From Plumapathes pennacea (lineage: Eukaryota > Cnidaria > Anthozoa > Antipatharia > Myriopathidae): DNA of 64,000 bases. The position numbers and the translations under genes are program-made. The stretch's first letter is position 1; each line of letters begins with the position of its first letter. Positions 3,852 to 48,829 of this stretch are shown piece after piece. Location of the stretch: positions 320,001 to 384,000 of the forward strand of contig OZ038468.1 in the NCBI GenBank assembly GCA_964036295.1. The letters are read 5' to 3'. The notes beneath the pieces were generated by a model that was not told the DNA's origin, ran no database searches, and was given only the letters and a program-made list of their open reading frames with translations.

Positions 3852-3885
3852 TTCATATCACATTGCAATCTCGTGATTTGAGAAC

Positions 3886-6062: not shown

Positions 6063-6181
6063 ACACTTCGTTATATCAATTTCCGGTGAGTTTTTATTAG
6101 TTTCGAAACAAAGAAAGCAGGTTGTGAAAAATTAGCATATTTAGCACAGACGTCACGCGATGGTATCGATTATTCAGCATC

Positions 6182-18400: not shown

Positions 18401-20077
18401 TCATTCCATTCCATAGTGCTTATAAAAACCCTCATACAAACTTGCACACAGCTCTTGATTTATAATAATATTCTCGTATTATGTACCTTGGCACAGGATT
18501 CGTGGGACAGTGTGCTGTCTATTGTTGACTATTATGCCAAAGTTCAGGACGACCTTATTCCTGCTGCAGGCCCTGGACACTGGAATGACCCAGATGAGGT
18601 ATATGTCATTTTATACATGCAGCATCTATGTATCAAGTGTGTTTTAGCACTGGTAAACAATGATTGATTTATTGCCTGTTTTCCAATTAATTTTTATACC
18701 ATAGCTCCTGTACATAATCAATGCATAAGCTATCATGCATTTTACCAAATTACTGACCTATTATTCATTTTAGTTGATTATTGGTGACTTTGGTCTGAGC
18801 TATGAAGAATCCAAGACCCAATTTGCTCTTTGGGCTATACTGGCCTCTGTGAGTACGCTTCAATGTCCTATTATACTTCCTTTGATTCTGCATAATTTGT
18901 AAATACTGTACTGTCTTAATGAAAATTCCCTATGGTTGCATTAGTCAGGAATCCAGCAATTTATGAATAATATCATTCTACTCTATTAACTATATATATT
19001 TAATTTTTCAGCCTTTAATTATGTCTACTGATCTGCGCAACATTGCACCATGGGCCAAAGAAATTCTGTTAAGCAGGTGACTATGTAAAGTTGTTTATAG
19101 ATTATTTGAGTTAATGTACATGTACTGTCAGTAGAAACATAAGAGATCTTAGAGTTACTTGTTCCGTGTTCAAAACACTCCTTATTACAGTGTGTTTAGT
19201 AAGATAAAAGGATGAGGCAGCCATTTCTCAACTTTTGTATTTTATAGATAGATTTATGTATCACCCATCTTCATTTGTTTTGTTTGCAAAATCTATAGGG
19301 AGGTTATTGCTGTCAATCAAGACGTAATGGGCAAGCAGGGAAGACGCGTTTACCAGGTGCATTATTGAATACTATGTATTATCATGGTACTTATTGTACA
19401 CTATTTTAGTATGTTTATATAACAAGCAAAAGTTTATAGTATGTGATCCAAACACCAATACACTCATGAGTATACTGGTAAAATTTTGTTGCCTCTTAGA
19501 GGTGGAGCGGGTTCAGTTTGATTTTAATATTTTTTTTGTACTTGTTTGACATTGTTATAAAATACTAAACATTTTTTTCTATGTTTATCTAGAACTCAGG
19601 ACATGAAATTTGGGCACGCCCACTGTCTGACGGCTCGGTTGCAGTTGTCCTGTTCAATCGACGGACGGATCAACCTACTGAGATCGAAGCTTCATTTGAC
19701 ATGGTATGTTTAGGAGAAATATATATATTGGAGGGAAATAGTCACAACACTTAATGGCTTTGAACCTTACTGTTTGATCTCTGTGATACTGCTGCAAAAT
19801 GTAAGGTCTTTCATAAGTCGACATTTTTCCACAGTTCTTTGTTTCACTAGACAGTGTTATTTTGTTATTATTGTGGTCATGGCCATGTCTAATTAGAATT
19901 CTTTAAGTCAATAAAATGTTCTCTGTCCCTCAGGTTGGTCTGTCAGCAAAAGAAGCCAATTCTCGTGATCTGTTTCAACAAGAAGACCTTGGCTTGTTCA
20001 CTGACAAATTCAGTGCAAAAGTGAACCCCAGTGGGGTGGTGATGGTCAAGCTGACCCCCACTGGAGTGGTGTGGTGA
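15474..20077 (+). CDS. NAGA: GH27 alpha-N-acetylgalactosaminidase-like, copy 1
   Basis: Exons: 15474-15567, 15881-15950, 16251-16332, 16693-16785, 17111-17147, 17231-17295, 17775-17942, 18112-18171, 18497-18598, 18774-18848, 19012-19076, 19299-19356, 19593-19703, 19934-20077; 407 residues, all phases agree. A signal peptide (about 1-21) precedes [20 protein letters not shown], as in animal NAGA. The nucleophile is the Asp of YLKLDGCY (D160); WNDPD (253-256) supplies the acid/base region. FSCSWPAY (S192, A195) has the small Ser/Ala pair that in NAGA replaces the Glu/Leu of GLA, so N-acetylgalactosamine is the expected substrate. Works in the lysosome or outside the cell on glycoconjugates. Odd: WNDPD is followed by Glu where the family has Met, and exon 7 uses a weak donor (AAG|GTTACT). 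Confidence 0.92.
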
Positions 20078-20744
20078 CAATTTTCCTCTCGGTGATTTTT
20101 GATCAGCCCTTTGCTATGCTCTTTGTGTAAGCATGCTTTTTCACTGGAATGATTATTCTGAAAGGGCATCAAGTTTTGGTCACTGCTGCTTTGGATAGCT
20201 AGTTTCTTTACAGCCTTGTCTTTTGGCATAGCCATCAATTTCCCAATTAATGCAATAATTTTGACAAGCAGGTTTTCCTTGTTTGTAGAAGTAGACTTTT
20301 GATCTAGATGTTGACCTGGAAACATGTTTATGAGTGCTGCATGATCAGAGTCAAACTTCTCCTTTCAATATAAAGTCAACCATATGCAATTTAGTATGGA
20401 GAAAATATCAGATGATCTCTTACTTAGGTTAAAGCTGATCAGAGTAACTTTTCTCCTGACTCTACTTATGCATTCTTTTCAGCAAAGTTTAAGAGAATTT
20501 GGACCTTGATAGACTTAACATATCAGTGGCTTAAATTTAAGTTTATTTGCAATTTGTGTTTCAATATAAAACAGTGAGAAAATGGAAGCTTAGTAAAGTT
20601 TATATCTTTAAAGTAAGACTGCTGTATCTGCAAAGAAAATATGGTCATGGAATATAGAAACAACTTTCTTCAAATTTGTATTGTTACTGTCTTTATAGAA
20701 ACATGTCAAATATTTTTTGCTGCATAAGCATAAATTAGATAGAA

Positions 20745-20750
20745 AATAAA
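20745..20750 (+). promoter_or_regulatory. Polyadenylation signal of NAGA copy 1
   Basis: AATAAA about 670 bases after the stop, followed by TTGTTTATGTTTTGG. It lies before the start of copy 2. Confidence 0.55.
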
Positions 20751-20899
20751 TTGTTTATGTTTTGGCACAAAGTTTTGGTGTGTTATTCACTTCACCCTTC
20801 TATTTCCTCCTTCTTTTTCTTCTGTTTTGTCGTTTTTTACCTTTTTTATCCGCCACATTTTGTTTTGTTTTCATCGGGGAAAACTCCTTGATTGACAAA

Positions 20900-20907
20900 T
20901 GACGTCA
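20900..20907. promoter_or_regulatory. CRE-like palindrome before NAGA copy 2
   Basis: TGACGTCA, 50 bases before the ATG of copy 2. It matches the CREB/ATF consensus; function is inferred. Confidence 0.5.
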
Positions 20908-20957
20908 TTATTTCGGATTTCCCTTGAGGAGGTTGGGTTACCAAGTTTACATTCAAA

Positions 20958-23900
20958 ATGGCGGTCAACTGCGAAGGAATGTTCATTCTTCTGGGAACAT
21001 TTGTTGTCCTTTTCGTGCAGGAAATCGTTGGATTGGACAACGGATTAGCCGCAACTCCTCCTAGTGAGTAGTATCTCTTGAATGAAGCACTTAAAAAGAC
21101 GAAATGTGGTGATGCAGCGCTTAAAAAATATTTTGTTTTGAATTCGTCGGCAAATTTTAGAGCGATCGCGCGAGTTCTAATCTAAAACGATTGTAAATAT
21201 ATCCACCCTGCCAAACGAAATTTAGCTGGAAATAACTGTAGTACAAGCAGTTTTTCTCATTTCAAATCGGGACCATTAATCGAAGCGGATATATGCACAA
21301 TGATCACAGCTGTTAAAGATGTTTGTTTTCATTAGGACCAGATTTCGTTCTTGTTCCTTAGTTGTTATCAGATGATTTTTTCGATAAACACTGAAGCGGT
21401 TTTATCATTTCGACTTTTGTCACTGATTACAAAAGTACTGAAATCAGATTCTTTTTGCTGATTACGTTGTACTGTATTGTGTTATGTCTGTCATTGCTGA
21501 TTATGATCTTACTTTCTGTTTTTCTTTCCGTTTTTTCCTCCGTTTTCTTTTTTCTCTCTCTATACAGTGGGATGGATGGCATGGGAAAGATTCCGATGTA
21601 ACGTGGACTGCAAAAATGATCCAAACAACTGCATAAGGTCTCTTGGTTAATATTTGACAGGTTGCCTCATGACTCTGATTACAGCAGCTTGAATAAACAC
21701 CACCAGTTTAATCAGTCCATTAATCAATTAATCACTGATAATTATTGTTACAATAACCAATCAATCAATCAATATTTTCATCACTTGCTCTGACAAAGGG
21801 CTCCGATATTCTTTTACGGTGTCGACTACATCGACACTAAAATAGTTGATACATGATATTTATTTTGTCTTTCTCCACACCAACAGTGAAAATCTTCTCT
21901 TTAGTGCTAGTTTTCTGTAAACATATATGGCTAATCAATTAATCAGTCAGATTATCAATAAATCAAATCAGTTGATCAAGATATCAGTCAATCAATCAAT
22001 CAATCAGGAGTCATGATTGATTTATATATTTTCCTTGAATGCTGTAATCATTGTCATGATATTATAATTGTCATCATGATAAAATAATCATTGTGCTATG
22101 AATAGTTATGAAAGACAATATTTAACCATTAATGTTGATATCCAAGTTACAAACACTATCCACAGCGAAAAGTTGATTAAAGAGATGGCCGACATGATGG
22201 CATCTTGTGGATACAAAGAAGCTGGATATGAGTACATCTGTATTGATGTAGGTTCAATTCTAATTTAATACTTATCAAATAACAAAATAATAGTTCACTT
22301 AACTTACATGTAATCATACTGTCCAAGTATTAAAAAAATTATACATCATAATAATGTGATCTAAACATAGTTTTATAAGCATCTTAATTTTGAAAAAGAT
22401 CATTACCTTATTTTGTATTACTGGTTATCCATTTAAAATGCATTGTAATGAATTGTAGTGTTGGTTTTATGAAAGTATTAACCATACAAAAATAGTGAGA
22501 TTGATTGTATTGTATTTAGCTCAGTACACTTAAATTCAACACTACTGATCATTGTGGCATTAAAAATTGCTCTTTGCTCTGGCTCAACATGCATCACTCT
22601 ACAATAAATAATTTATTGTAGGACTGCTGGATGGCAAAAAATCGAACAGAAAAAGGAGAATTACAGGCTGATCCCATAAGATTCCCAAACCAGATGAAGC
22701 ATCTGATAGAATATGTAAGTAAAGATGCTTTTTAATTACTGAATTTAAGTACAATTACTTGTCTTCCCCCATCTAACTAGAGGAATCTTTAAACCAACAG
22801 GTCCATTCAAGAGGACTCAAATTTGGTATTTATGCAGGTAATTTGTAAGACCTCAATCTGCTTGCAAAAATATATATTTTGATATTGCTTTGTTGTATAG
22901 AAATGTTTAAATATATAAACAAGGAAGGGAAGACATAGAAAAAAAAGAGATAAAAAGGGATGAGAAGAGATAATAAAAGGGAGGAATAGTTGTTTCAATG
23001 TTGAGTTTTTCCCTGTAAAATATAATTATTATTTTTAGATTATGGAACAAAGACATGTGCTGGTTACCCAGGAAGCATTCATCACATTAAACAAGATGCA
23101 AAGGTATTTACTTAATGAACAACTCATTTCTATGCATCAAACTGTTGAATTGTCGCAAAGAATTCTTTGTTAAAGATGTTAGGCAGGAGTTTGTGCATGA
23201 TTGAACCTGAAGTTCAGTGTGCAGAGTATTTGACATGCATTAAGTTCTGTGTGATTGACTTTATATGTATCTCTTTATTTATAGCAAAATACTTTTGCTA
23301 CCATGGAAACAAAGTATATCAGACCCTTAACCCAGCTGCCATCTTCCAGACTTTTGCAGATTGGAAGGTTGATTATCTCAAGCTTGATGGCTGTTATGCA
23401 AGTCCAAATATTATGGATGCAGGCTACCCAAAGTTTATGCAAGCCCTGAATGCAACTGGCCGTCCTATAGTATTTTCCTGCAGTTGGCCGGCCTACCAAG
23501 TTTTCAACAACATGACGGTGAGCTAATCCAGACCTTAATGACAAATTATTTGATGCTTAGGCGGGGCAGCTAAGCTGAGCCTAGTATAATCATGTATCTG
23601 ATCCAAAAATCAATAATAAAATCTATAAATTAAAGTGATGTCATGTTTTTTATACTCTTCTAATGATAAATACTGGTCTTGCATATATAAAAATGTACTT
23701 TGGGTTTGAAGGTTCTGATCAAAAGGCAATCATCACTTCATCATTATGTACTTAACTAGCTGATGCATTCCAATGCTCTGAATTGGAAATAGCTGGCATC
23801 TTTAATGAATTTAAAGTCATTTTGAGAATTTCTCAGCCGAACTTCAAGATATGGGGAAATCTTGTCAAGATTTGATGGGAGAAAAAATATCATTATTGAC

Positions 23901-26900
23901 AGGAATTTTTTATAACCCTTGGATGAATCTGTTTAGACTTAACACAGGATATTCCAGGACTTTGTTGTGGCCCAGTGTTTGTAAAAAAAAAATCAGCAGG
24001 ACCTTGTAAAAGATCTTACTGAGGTTTATCAATTTCTCTCAATTTTGAGAAGAGAAAAATTGAACAATCTAGTTTAGTTACCCTGTGCAAATATTTCAAA
24101 ATGAAATCCATATACAACTGAACTTGGCAAAACATTGTTGCGTGAAGGCATTTGCTGTCTTGCAAGCAAAACAGACCATTATACTATGAGAATTTTAATT
24201 TTAATTTTAATTTTAATTTTAGTAAAATTTAAAAATTTTACTTCTCCTTGACATCAATTTTGTTTCCCTTTTACTAGCCCAACTATGAAAGTATCGCAAA
24301 ACACTGCAACTTATGGCGTAACTATGGAGATATTCAGGTAAAACACTACTTACATATCCAATGGAGAGCTGCCCAGAGTAATACATGACTGCTTCTTTCA
24401 TCCATCATTGCGTCAGTAATATTGCTGAAGTTCATATCTTTCAAAAGTTGTTCTGAAAAAAATAAAGGAAGACTTTTGTATCACTGAAAATTGAGGGACC
24501 TTTAATTACGTTTCAGGATTCATGGGGTAGCGTTGTTAATATTGTTGACTGGTATGGAAATAACCAGAAAGACCTGATCAAAGCAGCAGGGCCTGGTCAC
24601 TGGAACGATCCAGATATGGTACGTTGCAAATACACAAATGCAACCAGTAGTCTTCGTTGATCTCGCGGGTACTGACATACCAACAAGTGTTCAACAAGCT
24701 ACACTTTCTTTTATGTACCAGTCGTTTAACATTGCAATCAGGAGTGTCAAGAGAGTCTCGCAGTGTTGTAGTTTCAGCTTTATTATTACGAATTCGAGCT
24801 GTCCAAGCGAAAAACCAGCTGTGCGCGCTTGAAGGTGAAATAATACGGGCAACATTTTCTTGCAACTTGTCGTGCAACAAATTTGCGGCCTGTTGTTGCA
24901 CGTATTACTACCTTCGCACGCAACTTATTCTGCAACAAAATTTCGTGTTGCGAGTTGCGGCAACATGTTGCAAAAAGTGGAAGCCGAATCTACTTTTTGC
25001 AACATGTTGCCGCAACTCGCAACGCGAAATTTTGTTGAGTGCATAGGTAGTAATACGTGCAACAACAGGCCGAAACTTGCTACGCTGTTGCACGACAAGT
25101 TGCAAGAAAATGTTGCCCGTATTACTTCACCTTAAGCGATTTTGTCGCCTTCTTTTTTTTTTTTTTTTTTTTTTTTTTTTGCGCGGGAATTCTTGACAAG
25201 ATCTAGTCTCCCAAAACTCCGAGGGCTGATTTTTTTAAACGAAGCCTGACTTAGACCTGGTTTATCGCTAAATTGAAGGTCAGACAAAGTCTGTAAACCA
25301 GGGTTTGCCAAAAGCTAAATTTCATTTTTCGAACCAGGATAGGCGTCGGTTCATAAATACCATGTTATAGCTGTGGTCCAACAAGCATGGCTACTGTTTG
25401 GACTTTGTTTAGATCAAGACTATCTTAGCCGCAGTCTAAATCTTGTTTAACAAATCGGCCCCGACTGTTTCGGTAGGGAGCCCGAAAAAACGGTTTGGAA
25501 ACGAGTTGTTTGGGGGACGCTTTGTGCTTTTTTTTCCGTCTTTAAAGCGAAGAATCACTTGACGACCTCTCACTTACATTTATCCTGATTTGGTCGAAAG
25601 TTTGATCAACTTTCACAGCAAATCAGGTCGCTATTCCTGGCGGGAGAAATCGTCGCTTATGCGGAAGATAGACGGGTTTTATTTCCTTGATGTGGTTGTC
25701 AGGTATCTTGATTTTTAACTTGGTGCATTAACTAATTTGTTCATTCTGTGCGTTTTTCCTTTTTTCAGCTGATCATTGGCGATTTTGGTCTGAGTTTTGA
25801 GCAGTCCAGGTCCCAGTTTGCTCTCTGGGCAATTTTGGCCGCGGTGAGTGTTAACGTTAACCAACCCTTCATATTGGTTAAATTATTCGTTTCAACGTGC
25901 CAACAGCCGTCCTGTCGAGGCTTTCCGAGCAGTTGTCGAGATTTACCGAGCACCTATCGAGACGTACCGAGCACCTATCGAGACTTACCGAGCACTTGTC
26001 GGGACTTACCGAGTACCTGTCGAGGCTTTCCGAGCATCATGATAACTATGTACAAATTAGCTGCTTTCATTCGAATGGTCACAAATCTTTGAAGGATCCT
26101 TGATGTATTTAATCCTCTGTACTAGTTGATCGATGATGGCCACACTAATACTGCTCATAACTTTGTTTTTATCTTTAGCCACTCATGATGTCCAACGATT
26201 TACGGGATATTGATCACAGATCTAAGGAAATTCTTCTCAACCAGTGAGCTCTTTTGCGGTATAGTTGTGTTTCGTCGAACGTTATTATTCCGTTGTTTCC
26301 AAGTTCTGTGTTGCTATGTAGTTTTTCTTTCCTTTTCTCGTCTCTTTTTCTGAACTAGACCTTTTTTCTTTCCCTGACTTCAATCTCTTTCCAAAGCGAA
26401 ATAATTGCTGTTAATCAGGACAAATTGGGACGACAAGGAGAGCGAGTGTTTCGGGTGAGGCTCCTGGCGCCAATTCACTAAACATTTACACTTGTATTTT
26501 ACAAGTTGGACCATTATTCAAACACCACTAAACGGACTCCAATCGGACAAAAGTTTGCAAAGTATTACAGATATAGGTCTCAACTGTATAACTGGAACTG
26601 AATTGGTCATGGTATTGGATTATAAAGTGTGTTTTAACGTGTGGGGAAATTGGCCCAGCTTGTGAAATACACTTTTTGTAAATGTTTTTTTGAATTGGCT
26701 CCTGTTTGTTATTACAGCGTAATACACTGCATATGATGCAATGCAAAGAGTGTTTATTACACTAACATACAATGCCATACCATAACGCGTTAAAGTTAGC
26801 CGTATCATAGAACAGAATATCGTAGAATATTGGCATATTACATAGCGTAAACAGTCTCTCTAAAGCGGACACTTCTTTAAGGCGGACGGCAAGCAGATTT

Positions 26901-29900
26901 GGTCCTTGCCGATCTTCACGGCTTGTTCTCTGTAACTGAACTCTCTCTAGTGCGGAAACCTCTCTAAGGCTGATACTAAGTGCAAGTCCTATGGATGTCC
27001 GCCTTAGAGAGGGTTCACTGTATAGAATAGTATTAACCTCTTTGTATTGGTAGCGTAGCAAAAGACATAGCATGTTACGACATTGCAGTATAGAGGGAGT
27101 AAATTAGTTAGCTAGCATAGCGTACTATACAACACAACAATAGGTTACGATGGCCTTTGGGCCCAGTTCAGACATTGACATTTTTATCAGCCGAACTCAA
27201 ACAGTCAACTCTCTGTACGCGCACACCTCTCTAAGGCGGACAACATGTATATTTGGTTTTTGCCGATTTTCACTTGTTTTTCTGTAACGGCAGCAGGGGC
27301 GGATTTAGGGGGGTGGATTGGGTGGCTAGCCACCCCCTCTGAAGTGGCAAAAAATAAATAAATAAAAGAGTTTTGGGTATTTTGAAATAAAGTAAGAAAA
27401 TAATCAATCTGGACATGTGTCTCAATATATGTAATTTTGTTTTCTAGTCAAACCAGTGATTAAAATACACTATTTGATTTTCTCTTACGTGAGTCGGAAA
27501 TTTTTGCGCTTCAGTGTCTCTTGTCAACTCTAACAAACTCTGCTTCGGGAGAACGGCAAAGTCTGCTGTACGGCATCCACGTGGTCAGGCGATAACTATG
27601 TCAATGGATAAGTGAAACTTGAATGTGACTGTGACGTCAGCCAAAAAATGACAGCATCCGCACTAAATTGACAAAAGAAGGAAGAACTCCGCCATGCACA
27701 CTGGTTCACAGAACTGATTTCGCTGTCGAAATTTCAGTATACCAAATACGAAATTCGCTGTCGGTTTCATTATTATCGGTGTCGCTGTCGGAATCTCCTC
27801 GCAGCCCCTTGTCGTTCGTCGCTAGTTCGTAGCTCTCGTGTCGCCGTTTCAAGGCCGTGTCGCCGGTTCGGAATTTCCCCTTACAGGACCCTATTTGTGA
27901 AGTAAAAAAAAGCGTATTTGCCCATAGCAACGGTTACCACCGAACAGCCTCGCTCCCATGAAATCGCCGCCATATTTGCAAACGGCTGGAAAACTGATCA
28001 GGCAGGTTTCCTCGAAGCCCAACATGCCTAAGTCATTTCTTATCAAGAGGAAAACTTCGAAGGCCACTTCACGTGATGACGACAGCGGAGAGATTGATCA
28101 AGGTGAGATGCGTGCGTATATTTCATGCACTGGTTTTCCCAAATCGCAACACGGCAGGTAACAAGTGTAAGAATTCGAAAGAGCGCTGCTTCTTGGTCAG
28201 GGCGTTTCCTGTATTTTCTGCTCAGATTTTGTCTCTCGTTCTAACCTAAACGGCAAATAGACTAGCTTGGGCTTCTAGCGGAACGGCAAGAAGATCAAAA
28301 TTTTGAGCAATGTGTGGCCGCGAGGCGAATTCGGTAAGTAATTCTAGTTTGTATCACACAGGTCATGAGGCAAACTGCCAGAAAGAAACGCAAATTGCCG
28401 GGGTTAGCGCCCAGAGTCAAGAAAAACCAATCGGCAACTCGCCCGTGCAGTTATGGAACGGTTTAGGAAAACCTTACGCGTACCCAGCCGAAGTAACCTC
28501 GGCCCCTTTGCTCCGGACCAGCAAGGGATTACAAAACAATACGAAACTTGAGGCGAAGGATATCGATGAGCAACTGAGTGTGGGAACGTCTGGAAACCAC
28601 GGGCCGCAACATGAATGTACGCAGTGTCAAAAAAGCTACTCGACTTTGTCAGGCCTCAAGAAGCATCAACAGTTGCACTGCAACAGCCTCAACACACAGC
28701 AGCAGAAGAAACCATTCACCTGCAAATATTGCGGCAAAGTGTATATTTCCCTGGGTGCGTTCAAGATGCACATTCGAACGCACGCGCTGCCTTGCAAGTG
28801 CAAGATGTGTGGAAAAGCATTCGGCCGGCCGTGGATACTGAAGGGCCACATCCGAACCCACACGGGGGAGAAACCCTATCAGTGCCCCAGTTGCAAAAGG
28901 GCGTTCGCCGACCGATCGAACCTTCGCAAACACTTGTCAAGAACATGCACACGTTCTTCCGGTTCTTTTTCCCCGATGTCTTAGCTGCTAAAGCACGAAG
29001 ACACAGTTTGCCCGGACTTCTCTCAAGACTGAAGACACACTCGTCAAAGCTTTTTTTTTTTTTTTTTCTGTCCTCCCTGAAGAACCCCGCGCGACGGAAA
29101 CTTAAAACTGATGAATTCAATTAGAAATCGACATGTCATGCGAGTTGAAAAACTACTCTGCTAAAACAGAAGGAGGGGCTTGTTTGTCAATGAATGGTTC
29201 CACGAAGCGTGAGTTGAGTTCGGCGTCTCAACCAGGCCAGAGTGTCCAGAATACACGGCATCTTACTGACTAATCACTGCTAACGTATCACATACACTAC
29301 CTTCTTTTTGTCATCAGCAACGCAGAGATTTTCCAGGCGGAAAGTGTCTACCGCTTTATCATTTCCGTACTTCGAGGAAGTCGTTCAATAATTTTCGTTG
29401 TTTCATCTTCGTTCGCTCTTGTCTGCTCGTTAGAGTATCTTCTGGCGATTAAGGAAACTGCCTTTGTGTTCGTCCAACCTTTTCCACAGCTTCCACGGTT
29501 GAATTGAGCGAAGAAACAGCATTAAAATCTCGATTGAAAATCAGAGAGCTCCAGCGAAGTGCAAAACATACGGACACGAAATGGATTATGAAAAGCACTC
29601 GAATATTCACGCGGCGATTTCCACGTGCAAATACTTCACGGGGGGCCTAGATGGGTTACTGTTAAGTGTTATGGGCCTGAATTTTTTACTGTTAAGTGTT
29701 ATGAAGCCAAAGAAATAAATGTTAAGTGTTTTGTTTGAAAGTACAGTTAAGTGTTACAAGACTAGATATTACGTAAAACAAGAAAATAGGGCCAAGATGG
29801 GGTTTACTGTTAAGTGTTATGGGCTTGGATTTCTTACTGTTAAGTGTTAGGCAGACCCCCCCCCCCCCCCCCATCTAGGCCCTCTTCACGTGTTCGCGGT

Positions 29901-31114
29901 TTTCAGAAAAAAAGGGGTATTTTATCAACACCTGTTGATCAAAAATATATTATACTTTGAAAGGGGAGGGGAGGGGGGAGAAAAATGGAGCTCGTTTCTA
30001 AACGCAAATAAAACAAATATACATAAACGACAATAATTTTCTGATCATCTCAGTAAGTTATTTAGTTTATTTATAATTTATTTATAAGCAATAAGAAATT
30101 ATGTAAAAAATGTATACAAGCGCTCTCATTGTATTTCTGTCGAGTAACGAGGGCAGTTTTGGACGCAGGTGTACAGGTTTGCCGTCCCTCCCCTCCCCCG
30201 TGTTTCGTGTGGAACTTTGTGACGTAGTGGTACTCAGTATTGTATTTGTTACGTGGAGGTTTGTCGCGTGACTGAATCAGTGTATTTTTAATTGCCAGAG
30301 TAACACTGGTGTGGAGATTTGGCGTCGCACCTTATTTGATGGTACAGTGGCCGTCGCGTTATTCAGCAAGAGAGTGGATGAGCCCGTGATGGTACAGGCC
30401 AGCTTTGACTTGGTGAGTTGTGCAGGGCGTTGAATGTATTGTGTAATGACCGCCGAGTGATTGATTACATGACCAACTGACTGATCGGACAAATGACTCA
30501 CTCTTCCGCTGAAGAGTCTGTCACCTTAAGGTTGACGTGGATTTTACGCCGTGAAGATTGTGTAAGCTGGCCTTTTGAGCCTTATCCCTTCGTCAGGTGC
30601 TCGGTAAGTCTCGGCAGGTGCTCGTAAATCTGGACAGGTGCTCGGAAATTCTCGACAGGTGCTCGGTAAGTCTCGACAGATGCTCGGTAAGTCTCGACAG
30701 ATGCTCGGTGATCTCGACAAGTACTTGAGCGTTAGCCTTTCGTGACAGTAAGTCCTCTGACTGGCTGATTGACTGACAGACTGAGACTGACTGGCCTATT
30801 CATTGACTGTGTATCGTAACTTAGCTCTCTTTGTTTATTCTCTGTCTAACGTGCAGGTCGGGATCAAAACAAGTAAAGCCGCCGCCCGTGATCTTTTCGC
30901 CCACAGGGAACTCGGTATTTACGAGAAGAGCTTCAAAGCAAAAGTGAACCCCAGTGGGGTGGTGATGGTCAAGTTGACGCCTTGCATATGCCAACCCTGT
31001 CTGTGTAGCAAGGATGGAACAAAGAAATCACACGATAAAAAGAAAACGCAGGACAAACACAAACGGAAAGTCATCCACAAACATTTAAAGCTGCGCGGGA
31101 AAAATAACGCTTAG
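20958..31114 (+). CDS. NAGA: GH27 alpha-N-acetylgalactosaminidase-like, copy 2, with basic tail
   Basis: Exons: 20958-21063, 21568-21637, 22166-22247, 22622-22714, 22801-22837, 23039-23103, 23350-23517, 24278-24337, 24517-24618, 25769-25843, 26179-26243, 26397-26454, 30299-30412, 30857-31114; 450 residues. Exons 2-12 equal copy 1 in length, proving tandem duplication. It has a signal peptide, [28 protein letters not shown] (nucleophile), FSCSWPAY (Ser/Ala pocket of NAGA) and WNDPDM, so it is predicted active. The conserved end [12 protein letters not shown] is followed by an added tail of about 45 residues: [12 protein letters not shown] and then many Lys/His ([16 protein letters not shown]). 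The 3.8-kb intron 12 holds a Snail gene, and other introns hold a 311-bp hairpin element and 21-bp minisatellites. Lysosomal or secreted action is expected; the tail's role is unknown. Confidence 0.92.
24827..25137. mobile_element. Foldback MITE in NAGA copy 2 intron 9
   Basis: Starts GCTTGAAGGTGAAATAATAC and ends GTATTACTTCACCTTAAGC. The two arms of roughly 145 bases are near-perfect reverse complements (for example GCGGCAACATGTTGCAAAAA against TTTTTGCAACATGTTGCCGC), with a short centre at about 24975-24992. Peptide frames across it are artefacts. Confidence 0.85.
25153..25180. repeat. Poly-T run
   Basis: About 28 T in a row, 16 bases after the foldback element. Confidence 0.9.
25911..26036 (+). 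repeat. 21-bp minisatellite, cluster 1
   Basis: About six degenerate units of CGAGACTTACCGAGCACCTGT in NAGA copy 2 intron 10. The same unit recurs at 30595-30720 in inverse orientation and at 32543-32649. Confidence 0.85.
26846..27020. mobile_element. Mariner-like short element (AGTCTCTCTAAAG ends)
   Basis: Left end ACAGTCTCTCTAAAGCGGAC and right end GTCCGCCTTAGAGAGGGTTC are imperfect inverted repeats. A related fragment lies at 27191-27290. Both are in NAGA copy 2 intron 12. Confidence 0.55.
27191..27290. mobile_element. Fragment of the same mariner-like element
   Basis: ACAGTCAACTCTCTGTACGC followed by CACCTCTCTAAGGCGGAC resembles the left half of the elements at 26846 and 59983; no right end seen. 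Confidence 0.45.
27632..27639. promoter_or_regulatory. CRE-like palindrome upstream of Snail
   Basis: TGACGTCA about 390 bases before the Snail ATG. Confidence 0.4.
28024..28984 (+). CDS. SNAI: Snail-family zinc-finger repressor, nested in NAGA copy 2 intron 12
   Basis: Two exons, 28024-28102 (CAAG|GTGAGA) and 28362-28984 (after TATCACACAG), joined in phase; 233 residues. The N-terminus [10 protein letters not shown] is a SNAG repressor motif. C2H2 fingers: C112/C115/H128/H132 ([15 protein letters not shown]), C147/C150/H163/H167 ([14 protein letters not shown]), C173/C176/H189/H193 ([18 protein letters not shown]) and a fourth, C201/C204/H217/C222 ([12 protein letters not shown]). These are diagnostic of Snail/Slug. 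The usual fifth finger is absent; the protein stops 11 residues after the fourth. Known: Snail binds E-boxes and represses epithelial genes during gastrulation and EMT. An in-frame ATG at 27958 exists but would bury the SNAG motif, so I prefer 28024. A third possible start, at 28310, would lack SNAG. Confidence 0.9.
29641..29883. mobile_element. TIR element with internal TGTTAAGTGTTA repeats
   Basis: Left end GGGGGCCTAGATGGG and right end CCCATCTAGGCCCT are inverted repeats, flanked on both sides by CTTCACG (29634-29640 and 29884-29890), a likely 7-bp target duplication. The interior has six copies of the core GTTAAGTGTT, four of them as TTACTGTTAAGTGTTA, and a C run. It lies in NAGA copy 2 intron 12, downstream of Snail. 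Confidence 0.75.
30595..30720 (-). repeat. 21-bp minisatellite, cluster 2 (inverted)
   Basis: About six units of ACAGGTGCTCGGTAAGTCTCG, the reverse complement of cluster 1, in NAGA copy 2 intron 13. Confidence 0.85.
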
Positions 31115-31449
31115 TTCACATCTCGCCATTAATGTCCGGAAAAGTCCGTTAAAGGTTCTGTTTTTGTTGTTGTTGTTGTTGTTGTTGTTGTTTTTTTTTT
31201 TTTTGTCAGCAACTTGTCTTGCAACGCTAATATGAAAATTACGACAGGTTTCTAAAGGGATTGGTTCAGCAACTAATGCAACGGCGATTTCTGCAATTGT
31301 CACAAAATGCAAAACTTAGTTCCACTTGGGAAAACTTGCGCGCAACAAAATGTAGCCAGTCAAGTTGCAGAGATAGCATGTAAAACTTGCAGTTCTTTAG
31401 ACACTTGCGATACAAGTCGGTAGGAAAATTGTACAGTACAACAGCACCT

Positions 31450-31657
31450 TTAACTCTTTCACTCCTGAGCTCATAATACAAATTCTCCCAACCATTGAAG
31501 AAGAAAATGTATGAGCAATGTAGTGATAATTGATAGGCCAATCAGCTTTTATCTAAGCAAACTATCAAGTAGCAAATTCTCCATACTGTATGATATATCT
31601 CTGGTGAGAAACTGAAGGAGAAAATTGAAGTTGATCACTCAGGAGTGAAAGGATTAA
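31450..31657 (+). mobile_element. TTAA-flanked MITE copy B1
   Basis: 208 bases. Starts TTAACTCTTTCACTCCTGAG and ends CTCAGGAGTGAAAGGATTAA. Its right TTAA (31654-31657) is shared with copy B2. Confidence 0.85.
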
Positions 31658-31861
31658 CTCTTTCACTCCTGAGTTCATAACACAAATTCTCTCAACCATT
31701 GAAGAAGAAAATGTATGAGCAATGTAGTGAGAATTGATAGGCTAATCAGCTTTTATCTAAGCAAACTATCAAGTAGCAAATTCTCTATACTGTGCGATAT
31801 ATCTCTGGTGAGAAACTGAAGGAGAAAATTGAAGTTGATCACTCAGGAGTGAAAGGGTTAA
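31654..31861 (+). mobile_element. TTAA-flanked MITE copy B2
   Basis: 208 bases, nearly identical to B1 and directly abutting it through a shared TTAA. Ends CAGGAGTGAAAGGGTTAA. Confidence 0.85.
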
Positions 31862-32302
31862 CGATGTGTTGGTGCGAGTAATCTGCCGCATACATCCATG
31901 TAAATAGAAGAGAATTATTTTCACAAAATCACAAGTAAAATCATCTTACAAACCGTTTTACTCAAAGTTGACTGTGAGTGGTCAGCGTGCTGATAAAGTA
32001 ACCAATCAAGTGGCGCGCAGAGTCTATTATGACGTCACACCTGGGCTCACCTCGCACAAAAATACGTCACAAATACGTCACCACACTGCGTTTTGATTAA
32101 TAGAAATTTGACCAATAAATAAAAGACAGTAATGCACAGTTTCCCTTGATTCCCTATTGATATAACTATCAGGAAGCAATTAGATTATTATAAAAATAAA
32201 GTTATACTTATGGTGGCATCACGTTTAGGATAAACGGTCTCAATCCAACGCATTTCTAGAGTCCTATGCAAGCAAATTCTGTTTGTAAATACACATTCGT
32301 GT

Positions 32303-35300
32303 TTACAGCGTGGCGGTCAGGTTTTCCAGTACATGCGGGATTTTCTCCATGAGTGTGAGCACAATACGGTCGATGTATTTCCTGAGTCTTTCATTATCAG
32401 CCGACAGATCTGCAGAAAGAAAAGGAATCGCGAGGAATTAAAAAACGCCGTAAAGTTAGATGCCTGTTTACAGTGACGCAAGAAACTACAGCAAGCCATC
32501 AAGGCCTGGCTAAACAAGACCAGCATGAAAACTGTTTTGTTGCTCGGGACTTACCGAGAACCTGTCGAGATTTACCGAACATTATCGAGACTTACCGAGC
32601 ACCTGTCGAGATTTACCGAACACTATCGAGACTTACCGAGCACCTGTCGTCGCAATCTTGTAATTTCGTTGAGTAGTTCAGACCGAGCTACCTTGCCTTT
32701 TCCGTCCTGCGTGACGTCATCGCTCTTCTCGTTCCTCGCATTCCCTGAGAAATAAAGTTCAGTAAGGATAACTTGGCTTTTGATACCTTACTCAGTTCTC
32801 ACTACATCATCCATACTCTTTATTCCGTAAAAGTTTGGGAGAATCTGTTATTTGAGCATGGGAGTCAACAGTTAACTCTGCTGGCTACTCACCTTGATCG
32901 TTGTGATCTTTCTCAAAGCTGAAATTCACCGTAGATGCACCACGGCCTCCGGACTTTGTTACCATGACAACCGGCCCACAACCTCTCCACGGTCGTGTGA
33001 CGCAGGTCAGCTTGGTGGGAGACTGGTACTGAAGAGTTGGCAGCAAATCACAGCCACACACACTCAAAGACAATACGTCTTCAGGAGAGATTCCTAACCC
33101 GCGCCCGCGAAGCGTAATGCGGGTTCCCCCAGAAACGGGACCAAACTTCGGCGATATACCAGTGATTTCTGGCGCTTCGTTTTTCCGCTCGAGTTCGTCG
33201 GATGCTGGCGCTGAGCGTGATTCTAAGGAAGGTGAACCAATCGTTTGTCTAGTATCTGGAACTCGGAGGGAAAACTCAGAATTTTCAGAGCGGTGATTGG
33301 CGTTGTTGAGGGGTTGTTCACCAGGAACTTGTAGTAACGAAGAGGAGTGGAAAAGGTCTGTTTTGGAGCCTTCGCTTGTTCCCAGGACTCCGCTGTGTCT
33401 TCGCCTCAACAATCCCAGCGTTAGAGTATTACACGAAGAGTATAAATTTTCCATGGATCTCGAGCCATTTAAAGACACTGACGAGCTTTCCATAGAGGCT
33501 CTTCTTTTTGTCCGCGTGTCCTTTATGAAGCTCGGGGTTTTTAAACTCCACTTCGCTCCTACGTCACTTTTCTTCTGGTATGACGTCACCCAGCAGTCGA
33601 AACATAACTCGCCACCGACGGCAACGTTCTTCTTGGTCAGCGGCTCCCACCGCCGTTTAGGCGAAGCTGACGCGATTTGAGCCAGCGGTACAGTCACTGT
33701 TCCCAACACCTCTTCTCTGTCTGTCACGGTTAAAACCAGCGGTACAGATTTCGTTACTTGTCTGAAAAGGATTGTGTGACATCGACAAAATTTATGCTGA
33801 TGGTCGGTATGTGTCAGCATTTTAGAGCCGTTTTTCGGATGACTGTCGAAACCTAAATCCAAAGCAAGTACACCGTCAATCACAGAGGCTGTAAGAAACT
33901 GAAACAATCCAAAGTACTTCGCGTTTGGTGTTATAATGCTCCTGATTGGCCAAGAACGCTGCAAAACTTGTTTGGACCAATCAAGAAAACGCACAACCGA
34001 ACGATTATTTTCGACAGTCATCCGAAAACGGCTCTAAGAATTGCAAAGAAGCCACTACCCATGATACTCTGCGCGCTCGCCTTCCGCCATTTTGAAGTCT
34101 CGCGCCCAAAGCATTGTGGTCGCGACTACAAAATTTTCCCCACCCCACCTGCCCCGGAAACCTGAGCGCTACACTATCTTCTCAGCAAAATAACTGTTGT
34201 AGGAAACTGAGTCTTCTAACCGTCTAGTGGCTTATTGTTTGAGCTGAAGTTCGTGCATTTTGCTTGTGTACAAAGTCGACAACAAGATCTCGCTTTCATG
34301 AAGTTCTTGTCCTTTCTTACGAATGTGAAAGATGCGGCGGGTACGAAAGTATTCGAGAAGAGCTTTCCACTTTCGCAAGTTACAGACTTTTTACTTTCGT
34401 GATAATACCAAAGTTGTATCTACACATTTTTGTGTACGTGTGCCGGTTTTGTGAATTACGACCCCCCCCCCCCCCCCCCCCCGCTGTAGTGTCGCTGTAG
34501 TGTCTCAATCGTGGTCACTGTCCTGTTGTTTTTCTTTCCAATCTCTCTAGTCTTTTCTGAAATCTCAGAATTCAGATTTTAAACTGGAACTCGATCCCAA
34601 GCACAATAGAAAATTAGCACTAAAGAGAACTTGATTTAGACTGCGTCGGCAAAGAGAATCACGTGTACAATGAATCGACTGAGGGTCGATGTGTGAAAGT
34701 CAGACGCCGTAAAAGAATTGGAAGCTGAAAGCTCGACAAAGGGCTAGCGTTTGAAACGTCAACTTCTCTTACGGAGTCTATCTTTCACACATCGACCCTA
34801 ATAAGGGTTCAATTCATTTTACACTATATCCCAAGCAGCAGAATTACAGACCTAGAATTAAAATAAACGTGCGCTTTTTAATCAAACTGATGGCTTTTGT
34901 CCAGCTTGCTATCAACCAAGCTTATTACAAACTTGTTTCGTAAAAAAATCATTTTTATACATCAGAGCGTTTCGCTGCGTGAAGTGATCAATGCGTTCAA
35001 CTATACAAAATAACAATCATAATGAAACTGACTTGCCGAGGTTTCGAAAACATCGCCGGTAAATATAGTAGCAGTTTGAATGGCACCAAACTTTCACCTT
35101 TTATTATATATATTCGCCAAAAAAATTACACCCACTCAATTTTGCATAACAAAACAAAGAAGAAGACATTTGACTGCTTAAATTAATTTACTAAAATACC
35201 ACGTCAAACCCGCGATTTGGTAAAAAGTAATTTAACACCACAAGGTCGGTCATAAAAATTCAGTTCAATGCAAAATAGACACATCTATTATGAAATGAAT

Positions 35301-36355
35301 TTAAAAAAAAGCCAGACACGCTAAGAACATTGCAAACAGACTTATAAATTGGTAAAACGACTTCCCTTGCAATAATTTGGGGTGTATAATTATTATCAGT
35401 TCAAATTTTCTTTTGTTCGCATTCTTTTATTTAGAACTACAATCACATCAGTGAGATATACAGAGAAAACGGATGCTAATTAAGGATTTCACACAACGGC
35501 TGATGCAGTTCTTCGACAGTCGGGAGCAGGTGAAATCGCAAAGAAACTAATTTGCATATGAAAAAAAAAAAATTGCAAGGCGATCTTTTTTGGTTAATAA
35601 ACTTCCAATAGAGGGCACCGCATCAAAGCAGATATCATATGACAGCACGCACATAGCTACCAACCCCTTTTAAGAAGAATGCAAGCGAAAACAAGTCCCT
35701 TACCAACCTCAGGAAAACAAGCAAAATCCTTTGACAGATTGTCAAAGGGACGAGAGGTCCTGCGAATAGATTATTTCACCTGGTCTATTCAGTCTAATCG
35801 ATCTCTGTCCGATTCAAACGGCGACGTCTTTCGCGCTTTTTCGCGTCAAATCTCGTCCAAATCTCGTCCGTAGGCGAGAATTTAAAAATGCAAATCCGCT
35901 CTATAGAACTCGCGATCATTCTTGCTACTTACAGTATCACAACTTCTCTTAATGCCACTAAGTATCATTAGTAAACGTAGTTCTTTGGTCCCGAGTCTGG
36001 CTGGATTTCTTCGTTCAGTACTTACATGGTAGATTCTTCATTCCAGGTCGGGTTACTTCCTTTCGCGCATTCAGTTTTGAACTTCTCTTTTCCGATGCCA
36101 AACACAACATAAGGTTTACACACAACTGAAAACAAAAGCCGAGAAATGCAGTAACTCAGCGACATCAACAAACCAACAGTCAAAACAAAAGCAGTCATCC
36201 CAAATGAACGTCTTACCATCTGAGCCTCGCTTCGGTTGTAAATTCCTCGCCGCATAAACTGCAAAAGCAAAAATAGCCACTGAGTATTAACTCAAAACGC
36301 TCGTGAGTGATTTGTAAACCAACTTACTGATCACATTTACTTTCTGCGGCTCCAT
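32303..36355 (-). CDS. C2-IPT/TIG-FIP protein (class I Rab11-FIP-like with Sec5-type IPT domain)
   Basis: Minus-strand exons in order: 36355-36328, 36258-36217, 36125-36026, 33761-32893, 32409-32303; all phases agree, 381 residues. The C2 domain (about 5-105) runs across exons 1-4: VNVIIYAARNLQPKRGSD, CKPYVVFGIGKEKFKTEC, NPTWNEEST, LVLTVTDREEVLGTVTVPL. A Ser-rich linker follows. Residues 252-340 are an IPT/TIG domain with the Sec5 (EXOC2) signature: ITGISPKFGPVSGGTRIT, and KSGGRGASTVNF at 326-337. The last exon gives NERLRKYIDRIVLTLMEKIP, a Rab11-binding FIP helix. Known: class I FIPs use C2 to bind membranes and FIP to bind Rab11 on recycling endosomes; the Sec5 IPT domain binds Ral GTPase in the exocyst. 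Combined role is inference. A possible extra exon lies at 32697-32744. Confidence 0.85.
32543..32649 (+). repeat. 21-bp minisatellite, cluster 3
   Basis: About five units of CGAGACTTACCGAGCACCTG type, in the last intron of the C2-IPT-FIP gene. Confidence 0.85.
32697..32744 (-). other. Possible 48-nt cassette exon of the C2-IPT-FIP gene (GC-AG donor)
   Basis: On the minus strand TTATTTCTCAG precedes GGAATGCGAGG and a GAAAAG|GCAAGG site follows 48 bases later. Inclusion keeps the frame and adds 16 acidic/polar residues (GNARNEKSDDVTQDGK) before the FIP helix. The non-canonical donor makes it uncertain. Confidence 0.3.
32746..32875 (-). mobile_element. TTAA MITE copy C, truncated
   Basis: Lacks the outer left end; the right part (ATACCTTACTCAGTTCTCAC, CATGGGAGTCAACAGTTAA) matches copy A. 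Confidence 0.65.
34461..34482. repeat. Poly-C run in C2-IPT-FIP intron
   Basis: About 22 C in a row, within the 2.3-kb intron 3. Confidence 0.9.
34682..34803. repeat. Inverted repeat with GGGTCGATGTGTGAAAG arms
   Basis: GGGTCGATGTGTGAAAG at the left is matched in inverse by CTTTCACACATCGACCC at the right. A related left half with AAAGAATTTGAAGCTGACG occurs at 51540-51610, so it is a dispersed repeat. Confidence 0.6.
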
Positions 36356-36414
36356 GTTGAAAGTTGAGCCTCGTCTGATTGTTTATGTCATTTTCTCTTT
36401 GCTCGCGTTCCGAA

Positions 36415-36490
36415 TTTCGCGCGAGCGCTCGCTTAGTAACCGCGCCAAGAAGACTTTTAGTACGGTTACTAAGCCGACGCTCGCGCGAAA
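36415..36490. repeat. 28-bp hairpin upstream of the C2-IPT-FIP gene
   Basis: Left arm 36415-36442 (TTTCGCGCGAGCG then GCTTAGTAACCG) pairs with 36463-36490 (CGGTTACTAAGC then CGCTCGCGCGAAA) around a 20-base loop; only a 2-3 base mismatch lies in the stem. It is 60-135 bases upstream of the gene's ATG. Confidence 0.75.
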
Positions 36491-36699
36491 GCATGGGAAA
36501 GAAAGGGAGTGAACGCGTGAAAAGAAGGGAATGGAACGGGAAGCAACGGGGAATTACAGGGAACACAGGCGAAAAGGCAACGAAGAAACGTCTCGCGAGG
36601 GCTGGTGGTCGCAGGATGCGGTACTCACGGGTAGCCATGTTTCTCAGTGCGGGGATATTTATATGTGCAGTGGGGCAACGGCAGAGGGGCTAGGCAGGT

Positions 36700-37760
36700 G
36701 AACCATGCTGATGCCAGAGACCCTTGCCCGGCGTTCCCTCAGGTTCTCGTCGTCCGTTGCCTGTGCACTGGCGCCGGCACCCTCGACAACAGCTGGTCAG
36801 CACCCTTTCTCCTGGAGCGCATTTGCCTGGTCGAGGAGCTGCCCGAAGAGCCACCTGCTACGATGGACGACCCTAACCTACCCTTGGCCGCCCTCGGGTG
36901 GACGTCCCCTCACCTAGTGCCTGTTCTGGTTGGGTGCTCGCTCCGCCCAGGAAGTGGTTCAGCAGCTGGGTCTGCAGCCTTGGACAATCAGACACCAGCT
37001 GTTACCTGTCGCAGAGGAAACTTGAGTCCAGCTCTACTGAATCCTCCGAGGCTGCTCCGTCCGTGTCTGAGCTGGAATGCTCGTCGCCCTGCTGGTGGTC
37101 TCGGTCAAGGAGGTACTCCGCGTGCCTGCGGTTAAGCACCGAGCCAAGCTCGGCCAGGCTCTGGTCGAGGTCGTCGGTACCCAGTGCAGAGAAGGTCAGG
37201 AAGTCAATCCTGTACTTTAGCATGCTCTGCACTAGGTATTGGGGCTGCCTGCACTGGCCAGGAAGAGCTCTGACAGGGTGAGGCCCAGGTTTGCCATGGC
37301 CTGCCTGGAACAGAACGCCACAATGTCTTCAAGTGCTATGCTTCGCATGGCCTGGTTGGAAATCCTGGGTGGATTAGCTGAAACTTTAATGACAAAAATC
37401 TCACCTGTCATGTCTCACTCGTGCAAGATGGCGGTTGCATGATGCAATGCCTGTTGGGAGCATGCCCTCCAGGCTGGCCCCTGCACTCAGCAACAAGGCT
37501 CTCTTGTCTAGGGCAGCAGGGGTGCTGGTGGCCTTAGTGCTTTCCTAAGTGCTTTTCTTGTACTCCTCTGCAATCCTTGGCCTCGCTGAGAGCACTGCGC
37601 GTGAACCTCCTGCAGTAGGCCTTACACTGCTGGACGCTCTTGAAGGCCCGAAAATATATGGAGGCATGCCCGGCAGCTGATCCAGAATTTCCCCCTCCCT
37701 CTCGTTGTTCACATGGCGGTGCAGGGATGGGGTGCACCTGCAAATAATCACAGCCTATCA
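36700..37760 (-). pseudogene. GC-rich decayed coding repeat, family not recognised
   Basis: The block is far richer in G+C than its surroundings. On the minus strand several protein-like stretches in different frames are seen, such as YRIDFLTFSALGTDDLDQSL (within 37002-37232), TPAALDKRALLLSAGASLEG and LDQLPGMPPYIFGPSRASSS, broken by stops. This looks like a decayed transposon or captured gene; I do not recognise the family. Confidence 0.4.
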
Positions 37761-37860
37761 CCATGCACACTGAGGTATCGTTTTGGCCATACACAAGTAG
37801 CAGAATCAGTAGGTAAGTACACAAGGCTGAATACTAATAGAAATACATACATATCCTTTA

Positions 37861-37913
37861 GGTGTGGAAGGTTGGGAGATTCTGCATATTGAACTTGGGA
37901 GTGAAAGGATTAA
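37861..37913 (-). mobile_element. TTAA MITE copy D, fragment
   Basis: GGTTGGGAGATTCTGCATAT and TTGGGAGTGAAAGGATTAA match the right end of copy A. Confidence 0.65.
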
Positions 37914-38288
37914 GCCAAATTATAGGTTCTATGGGGGGACAGGATGGGGTAGGGATTACTCATAAAAATTTACTGTGAAGACCCCTTCAGACCAAAATAT
38001 ATACAATTATGTCCCATCAAATATTTCCTCTCATGCGTGATTGGTGGAATTGTGACATGTGACCGAATAAGGATCAGCAAATAACCCCCGCCTGGTGAAC
38101 TATTGCTCTTTATTGACAATATCTGAACACAGTTTTATATATTTAATCACAAAAGACATTACGAGATGACTACCGAGGAGGATATCAATTCATTGGTCAA
38201 AAAAGCCATTTTAGAAAGTACCAAGAAGGTTTAGAGTCCCCGCGCCATTATTTGCGCTGTGAGAGGAAATATTTGAAAGATGATAAAG

Positions 38289-38471
38289 ACAATAAACTAC
38301 TTTTGGCTTTGGAAATATGCACGTGGGATAATTGTCCTTGGACATTATCTGTTCCTCGAAGCTCACAGTTGCCCTTGAGCTTCGCTCTTGGGTAACTGTT
38401 TGCTTCTCAGAACAGATAATATCCCCGGACAATTATCCGTGCATATTTCCTCGCCAAAAGTAGTTTATTGT
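38289..38471. mobile_element. Foldback element
   Basis: ACAATAAACTACTTTTGGC at the left is matched in inverse by GCCAAAAGTAGTTTATTGT at the right; further inside GGATAATTGTCC pairs with GGACAATTATCC and ACAGATAATAT with a near copy. Arms are about 75 bases around a 60-base centre. Confidence 0.75.
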
Positions 38472-38930
38472 TTATATATATTTGCACCCTGATTCAGACC
38501 AAATCAATAACCTATTCAAGACTAAAGTGCTTGAAAAACAAAAAATCCTTTGGGGTGACACACACCTATCATATGACAAAACCCCTGGGTGGCAGGTGAT
38601 CTAGCTACTGGAGTTCAAGATTTATTGAGTTTGTCACGCATGGTGACAGGAGGATAGGAAAAGGACTTTCGTCCCAATTGACACCCATCTCCCTTAAGTA
38701 CAAGGATTATGAACAAAGACTTTGAAACAGATAAGTACTAAGCCACTTCCAAAATCCCTTTAGAGTACAAGCTTGTCAAAAAGGGCATGATCTGGTGCAT
38801 AAGTTATTACCTACCTTAAATATTCTTTATCCGTTCTGCAGCAGGGAACTGGGTATCACATTCTCTTTAGAGGAATCAATCTGGGCAATTCTCAAGAGTC
38901 TGGTTCAAAACATTACTGAAAGTCATGTTA

Positions 38931-42864
<3,934 letters not shown>

Positions 42865-47340: not shown

Positions 47341-47467
47341 TTCAGCACGTGAGCGGTTTGTATAAAGAGAAGCGTAATTGACTAGGTTGGCAGATTTTCG
47401 ATGTGTCGGTAAGGGAGCGGTAGAGCGTTGATTTAATCCACTATTCCTTGGTGTTGTTGTTCAAAAG

Positions 47468-48829
47468 ATGGCTGAGGTTCAAAACGAAGGATCGGTGGTT
47501 AAGGAGAGCGCTTTGAAAGTCGAATCGTCGCCTAAGTTGCTGGTGAACGGAACGGAATGCGTTGTCATTTCAGACCGCGATGTTCATTCCAATTCATCCG
47601 AGGAAGATGATCACAAGCGAATTTTTCACACGGATTCGGAAAACGAGAGGCGAGGGACGCCGGAGCCGTTTGAGCCTCCTAGCGAGGAACTTACAGAGAA
47701 GATCGTAACACAAGTCGAGCAATATCTGAGCGACGAAAACCTGGCGAAGGACGCGTTTCTGTTGAAGCACGTCCGCCGAAACAAGGAAGGTTTCGTCAAT
47801 TTGAAACTGATAACGTCGTTTAAGAGAGTGAAGTCGCTCACGAAGGATCACCGAGCGGTTGGTGAGGCTTTAAAAGTGTCCGAGAAGCTTTCCTTGAACG
47901 CTGAAGGAACAAAAGTTAAAAGGAATTCGCCTCTTCCGGCCGAACTACTCGAGCGGAATCCAGGACGGACAATCGTAGCGACCAAAATAGGAAACCCATC
48001 TTTTGACAGCGTCAGCGAAATGTTCTCCAAGTGTGGTGAAATAACGCTGATACGCATACTTCGACCCGGGAAGCCCGTACCGAGCGATCTAAAAGCGTAT
48101 TTCAGCAAGAACCCCGAAATGGAGAAAGAAGTTTGTGCCGTGATCGAGTTTGAAACCATGGCTGCAGCTGCACGAGCATGTAGCGAGCTATCCAAAGAGA
48201 ACGGTATGCATGTAGTGGAGTTAGGAAAGGCGAAGAAGGAGAAAGTCAAGGCTAAAGTGAAGAGCAAAGACCGAGGGAGTGACACAGGAAAAGACTCCGA
48301 GGACGAACTGGAGGATAGGGGCAGGCGAAGGAGAAACAAGAAAAACAAAGATAAAAGGCTTCAAGAGGTGATGGGAAGCAGATCAGACGGAAACCACAGC
48401 AGTTCATGTTCCTCCGATACAGACAGTCCCTACAGCTCATTCAGCAGCTGCCGTCGCAGGTACAACAGTGGGGGTAGCGGGTCTGAAGGGCACCTTACCC
48501 CAGGAGGTACCCCTCGCAGTAGCCAGCCTGGGTCATGGCGGGAGAGTAGATCTCCCCAGAGCAGTCCTGAGCCATCTCGACGGCGGTTTGCTGATCCGAG
48601 TCACAAGGAGGGAAGCAGTAGTGCCCCCAGCAGCCCCTGGTCTCAGCGACGCAAAGCTGCTTCGCCTAATGCACATGCATCTGGAAAAAGTCCCTTGGCT
48701 GACTCAGAACCTGTGAGGCATAAAATGGTCCAGTTGGAGGGAATACAGCGCTTGCCCAAGGGACCTGATGGTACGCGAGGGTTCCACTCTGGTTTCGGTC
48801 GAGAACGGACACTTCTTGCAGTAGCATAA
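47468..48829 (+). CDS. LARP6: La-related protein 6
   Basis: One exon, 453 residues. An acidic N-terminus precedes the La motif (about 72-155: IVTQVEQYLSDENLAKDAFL, EGFVNLKLITSFKRVKSLT). An RRM-like domain follows (about 167-260, with GEITLIRILRPGKPVP and AVIEFE). Then comes a Lys/Arg/Glu-rich stretch, a long Ser-rich disordered segment, and the LARP6-specific C-terminal motif RLPKGPDGTRGFHSGFGRER. Known: LARP6 binds stem-loops such as those in collagen mRNAs through the La module and controls their translation; the C-terminal motif binds partners such as STRAP. Being a single exon is notable, since the family usually has several; a retrocopy that kept or replaced the parent is possible. The start is the first ATG and fits the family. 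Confidence 0.93.
   Translation: MAEVQNEGSVVKESALKVESSPKLLVNGTECVVISDRDVHSNSSEEDDHKRIFHTDSENERRGTPEPFEPPSEELTEKIVTQVEQYLSDENLAKDAFLLKHVRRNKEGFVNLKLITSFKRVKSLTKDHRAVGEALKVSEKLSLNAEGTKVKRNSPLPAELLERNPGRTIVATKIGNPSFDSVSEMFSKCGEITLIRILRPGKPVPSDLKAYFSKNPEMEKEVCAVIEFETMAAAARACSELSKENGMHVVELGKAKKEKVKAKVKSKDRGSDTGKDSEDELEDRGRRRRNKKNKDKRLQEVMGSRSDGNHSSSCSSDTDSPYSSFSSCRRRYNSGGSGSEGHLTPGGTPRSSQPGSWRESRSPQSSPEPSRRRFADPSHKEGSSSAPSSPWSQRRKAASPNAHASGKSPLADSEPVRHKMVQLEGIQRLPKGPDGTRGFHSGFGRERTLLAVA

Follow-up and report, generated by a model that had tools for sequence, protein, structure and literature searches.

A predicted protein of Plumapathes pennacea combining a C2 domain, a Sec5-type IPT domain and a Rab11-FIP helix

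A gene on the minus strand between positions 32303 and 36355 of the window (the whole stretch of 64,000 nucleotides that was analysed) is predicted to encode a protein in which a C2 domain, an IPT/TIG domain of the Sec5 type and a Rab11-binding helix of the FIP type follow each other in one chain. The preliminary description had claimed this combination, and its presence in one predicted protein was confirmed: Pfam finds C2, TIG and RBD-FIP in this order. We propose, at a probability of about one half, that the product is a dimeric Rab11 effector of the FIP type whose Sec5-family IPT domain would also bind Ral-GTP. If this is true, one molecule might read two switches of membrane traffic, Rab11 and Ral, simultaneously, and the C2-IPT-FIP protein would bear on the assembly of animal Rab11 effectors. 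In the literature searched, with many subscription papers outside its reach, no description of an IPT domain within a FIP was found. Databases may already contain the architecture without anyone having noted it, and it may occur widely among animals.

Gene structure and domain content

The gene consists of six exons with GT-AG introns and compatible phases (Table 1). It had been described as five exons that join in phase; the in-phase joining was correct, the number was not, and exon 5 is the one that had been overlooked. GT donors and AG acceptors in fitting phases are present at the junctions named at that time (33761/36026; 32893 and 32409). Due to the length and phase of exon 5, skipping it preserves the reading frame, so that the shorter version of the protein also looked sound: the product has 417 residues with exon 5 and 381 without it. 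Exon 5 could be a cassette exon.

Table 1. Exons of the C2-IPT-FIP gene and location of the IPT domain and the FIP core (positions in the window; residues of the 417-residue protein).
Feature	Position	Strand	Remarks
Exon 1	36328..36355	-	ATG, first strand of C2; donor GTAAGT
Exon 2	36217..36258	-	C2; acceptor TTGCAG, donor GTAAGA
Exon 3	36026..36125	-	C2; acceptor TTTCAG, donor GTAAGT
Exon 4	32893..33761	-	869 nt; last part of C2, linker rich in serine, entire IPT/TIG; acceptor TTTCAG, donor GTGAGT
Exon 5	32637..32744	-	108 nt, phase 1-1; coiled coil begins here and leads into the FIP helix
Exon 6	32303..32409	-	FIP Rab11-binding helix and stop codon; Pfam RBD-FIP
IPT/TIG domain, Sec5 type	32915..33172	-	residues 254-339; Pfam, match to 1UAD, tree; genome search finds the same place
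RBD-FIP core, YID motif	32321..32398	-	residues 387-412; Y394 I395 D396

Residues 58-98 of the C2 domain and the entire IPT domain are encoded within exon 4. Their joining is thus independent of splicing, which is needed only for the link from IPT to FIP, and this link spans two introns. When exon 4 is read through unspliced, a stop follows two codons past the exon end. That the gene model is an artefact, with C2-IPT and the FIP helix in different transcripts or the locus in decay, is in our view very improbable: although the exon 5 donor is provided by a 21-bp minisatellite array (32544-32649, minus strand) that overlaps the 3' end of this exon, frames and splice sites are intact throughout, and the register of the coiled coil continues over the junction of exons 5 and 6. 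No ATG precedes the FIP core helix in the open frames around exons 5 and 6, so neither of these frames could start a protein alone. In addition, a search of the genome found no close second copy of the gene.

In the 417-residue protein, Pfam assigns residues 5-98 to C2 (E 2.4e-15) and finds TIG at E 4.1e-11 and RBD-FIP at E 1.5e-4. The RBD-FIP score of 21.9 bits lies below the Pfam cut-off of 23.3, but it rises above the cut-off when the 71-residue end is scanned separately (24.9 bits). It amounts to 27.2 bits for exon 6 placed behind the end of exon 4, and to 25.6 bits at this gene in the whole-genome search. When the 71-residue end was shuffled nine times, no shuffled version gave a family match at E up to 10. 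An NCBIfam scan of the protein returned nothing at E up to 1, and an Rfam scan of positions 29000-40000 gave no hit. Pattern matches to possible relatives were obtained among viral contigs (17) and prokaryote contigs (39), none of which could be confirmed, as is expected for an animal gene.

The IPT domain and its kinship with Sec5

Judged by its sequence, the IPT domain belongs to the Sec5 family, and the case for this assignment is stronger than first shown. Against the Sec5 structure 1UAD it scores 64.4 bits. Single plexin domains reach at most 23.3 bits among the matches listed (n=5), and whole plexin chains, which contain several IPT domains each, up to 43.3 bits. A plexin-type IPT was rejected on these scores and on the position of the domain in a tree. 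For the tree, 22 TIG matches were extracted from the genome, which has at least 112 of them, and two shorter than 60 residues (C1_27992093 and C12_13200374) were left out; the remaining 20, the IPT domains of two Sec5 proteins and the IPT domain studied make up 23 rows, 20 of them distinct. Among these rows, the best match of the IPT domain is human Sec5 (40.7%, 65.1 bits), followed by the genome's own Sec5 (40.4%, 62.0 bits) and by another IPT at 39.3 bits. The relation is reciprocal, as the genome's Sec5, after human Sec5, best matches the IPT domain studied (62.0 vs 26.2 bits). All three stand on one side of a branch with a support of 96/99 in the tree of 23 rows, 20 distinct.

The Sec5 gene of this genome is a separate one, located at G000:C2:30.01-30.04 Mb, where the helical body of Sec5 (PF15469) is found at C2:30.02 and 30.04 Mb. 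Its IPT domain lies in two exons, joined here by sequence alone, vs one exon in the C2-IPT-FIP gene. The domain studied is about 40% identical to both Sec5 proteins, which are themselves 64% identical in this region; by this measure it is not a recent Sec5 copy. The pattern suggests that it split from Sec5 before the Sec5 proteins of humans and of this animal parted, but a faster clock in the C2-IPT-FIP gene would look the same, and the two Sec5 domains are joined in the tree at only 92/51. IPT-repeat frames also occur in large groups elsewhere in the genome (G000:C6:21.1-23.3 Mb and C12:0.12-0.13 Mb), and several of these are identical or nearly so.

Two residues of Sec5 that are important for Ral binding, T11 and R27, are conserved in the IPT domain as T257 and R275. 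T11 is predicted to form a hydrogen bond with Ral Y36, and the exchange T11A strongly reduces the affinity for RalA (both reported in PMC12407918). R27E rescues the binding to the RalA mutant E38R (PMC3382198), so R27 of Sec5 should face E38 of Ral. The KSGGRG-ST stretch, which had been named as a Sec5-like motif, is better conserved in the IPT domain than in the genome's own Sec5 (RSGGVGKCM). The Ral side appears to be in place as well: the best Ral match in the genome is 83% identical over 150 residues and retains Y36, E38 and K47, numbered as in human RALA. An IPT domain with the equivalents of T11 and R27 predicts binding to Ral and not to the exocyst.

It is rather unlikely, but deserves consideration, that a true effector of Rab11 is encoded whose IPT domain has stopped binding Ral and simply mediates other interactions or acts as a spacer. 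Compared with either Sec5, the domain is longer by two residues between the first and second strands, near the strands that face Ral, and together with the identity of only about 40% this means that the Ral surface may have changed; its GPVSGGT, near the Ral-facing strands, resembles plexin IPT domains (GPxxGGT) and not Sec5. These differences have to be set against the conserved T11 and R27 equivalents, the KSGGRGxST stretch and the grouping with Sec5, all of which argue for a domain that would still bind Ral. A single-sequence AlphaFold model of the isolated IPT domain was unusable (pLDDT 44).

Relation to known Rab11-FIPs

With the class I Rab11-FIPs (RCP/FIP1, FIP2 and Rip11/FIP5) the predicted protein shares the N-terminal C2 domain and, by prediction, the C-terminal Rab11-binding coil described for this class (PMC3279423, PMC7397465). 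The helix, however, differs: over 24 residues, just 8 are identical to FIP1 and 8 to FIP2, vs 13 to FIP3. The nearest PDB chains to the FIP end are also those of FIP3; chains of FIP1 and FIP2 are in the PDB library, but the 29 chains matched at E up to 10 include neither. A search of the genome with the FIP2 helix gave no match, which is uninformative by itself.

The comparison of the C2 domain does not discriminate. Its score is 39.3 bits against the C2 domain of FIP2 and 36.6 bits against the next best, a C2 domain from the same genome. The FIP2 domain prefers three other C2 domains of the genome (45.4, 43.9 and 41.6 bits), and plant C2 domains in the PDB score about equally with that of the predicted protein. 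The class I label was thus rejected as unproven: with a helix nearer to FIP3 and a C2 domain not tied to class I, the idea of a class I FIP to which an IPT domain had been added is not supported. Class I Rab11-FIPs are not known to have an IPT domain. The SDPY turn of C2 domains usually carries an aspartate; here the turn reads CKPY, and because this aspartate is missing, calcium-dependent membrane binding by the C2 domain is unlikely.

Class II comprises FIP3 and FIP4, with Nuf as a member from the fly. Although the helix is closest to FIP3, these proteins have N-terminal EF-hands, and Pfam detects none in the predicted protein. Exocyst Sec5/EXOC2 has the IPT family and the T11 and R27 equivalents in common with it but contains a helical body, and PF15469 is absent from the Pfam matches of the predicted protein up to E 10.

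The RBD-FIP family was matched at five places in the genome, two of which are above the cut-off: the C2-IPT-FIP gene and C4:13286628 (57.5-58.4 bits). About 10 kb upstream of the C4 place, the same strand carries EF-hand-like frames, whose best matches (E 2.2e-4 and 8.4e-4) are below the Pfam cut-offs. The C4 gene is probably a class II FIP, for which we infer that the EF-hand-like exons and the RBD belong to one gene. A third FIP on C6, suggested by two places with 22.0 and 21.6 bits, both below the cut-off, was provisionally rejected. Downstream of one of these places, 6.2 kb were searched with a loose motif for the remaining half of the domain; it matched twice, neither time in a FIP-like sequence, and tblastn found nothing better than E 0.24 there. 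A coil frame beside the C6 place weakly resembles TPR (19.4 bits, below the TPR cut-off).

The C2-IPT-FIP gene is the only C2-bearing FIP that was found in the genome, in a search that a helix split by an intron could escape. Taken together with an IPT domain that seems to have split off before the Sec5 proteins separated, this means that the gene may be an ancient fusion from which the IPT domain was lost en route to the vertebrate class I FIPs. We put forward only tentatively that C2-IPT-FIP is a third Rab11-FIP architecture, in which one dimeric chain would read both Rab11 and Ral.

Predicted coiled coil, proposed function and surroundings of the gene

The YID motif of the FIP helix is conserved (Table 1); FIP3 with the exchange I738E and FIP4 with YMD-to-AAA are reported to be deficient in Rab11 binding (PMC3279423). 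The RBD forms a parallel coiled coil with two Rabs bound in the complexes described (PMC7397465). A heptad core can be read in the predicted protein (L370, I374, L377, V381, L384, N388, L391, I395, I398 and L402), with an unbroken 3-4 register across the junction of exons 5 and 6; its ten core positions comprise nine hydrophobic residues and one Asn. All four core positions in exon 5 are hydrophobic, a result obtained in 1.1% of 200,000 shuffles of the 18-residue stretch, but this figure flatters the register, which was first picked by eye.

The coiled coil would dimerise in parallel and bind two Rab11-GTP on recycling endosomes. The genome encodes a Rab11 at C2:3.046-3.048 Mb, where three exons match with identities of 96%, 93% and 80%. 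The IPT domain would bind Ral-GTP via the same surface as Sec5, and the C2 domain would add membrane contact. Most probably, such a protein would act as a coincidence adaptor for the two GTPases and keep Rab11 carriers at sites of active Ral.

A bridge between Rab11 and Ral/exocyst, as proposed in the preliminary description, can be followed only in part. Ral binding is predicted from the domain; the step to the exocyst is weaker, because the Ral effectors Sec5 and Exo84 are reported to bind Ral competitively (PMC3382198). Since the IPT domain of Sec5 contacts Ral and Ral effectors compete, the protein would rival Sec5 for one and the same Ral. Any route to the exocyst would then be indirect, by way of a second Ral or of the link between Rab11 and Sec15. 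FIP3 and FIP4 were reportedly linked to the exocyst by Fielding in 2005; this case also ties a FIP to exocyst traffic, but via separate proteins and not through an IPT domain in the same chain. The competition for Ral (PMC3382198), which an IPT domain with the same contacts should join, would also fit a protein that sequesters Ral from the exocyst and damps Ral-exocyst tethering at recycling endosomes. We regard this as improbable: it is purely inferred, and the binding of Ral by a dimer need not use up the supply. A 2025 preprint (PMC12407918) calls it unresolved whether the exocyst also takes part in secretion via recycling endosomes, and it is in this traffic that the proposed dimeric effector of Rab11 and Ral would work.

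The 21-bp minisatellite (consensus TCGACAGGTGCTCGGTAAGTC) occurs at three places within 7 kb: 25915-26022 (-), 30590-30719 (+) and the array at exon 5. A search of the 290-Mb genome with one of the arrays, in a mode that skips simple repeats, returned only those three places. The consensus unit contains the splice-donor sequence GGTAAGT. Pieces of a GH27 alpha-galactosidase extend over 17703-31111 (+), with Melibiase_2 at 17703-17999 and Melibiase_C, just below the cut-off, at 30791-31111. Their 3' end would face that of the FIP gene. Between the GH27 pieces lies a C2H2 zinc-finger frame (28307-28981), and between them and the FIP gene there is a 204-bp direct repeat (31450-31862) in two copies that are 95% identical. 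Further away in the window are two adjacent RING/B-box frames at 3877-8413 (+), the second of which adds filamin and NHL repeats and is presumably TRIM2/3/71-like. Two long open frames were also found, one with a rhodopsin-type GPCR domain at 9055-10443 (-), the other at 47432-48826 (+) with a La domain and, weakly matched, SUZ-C.
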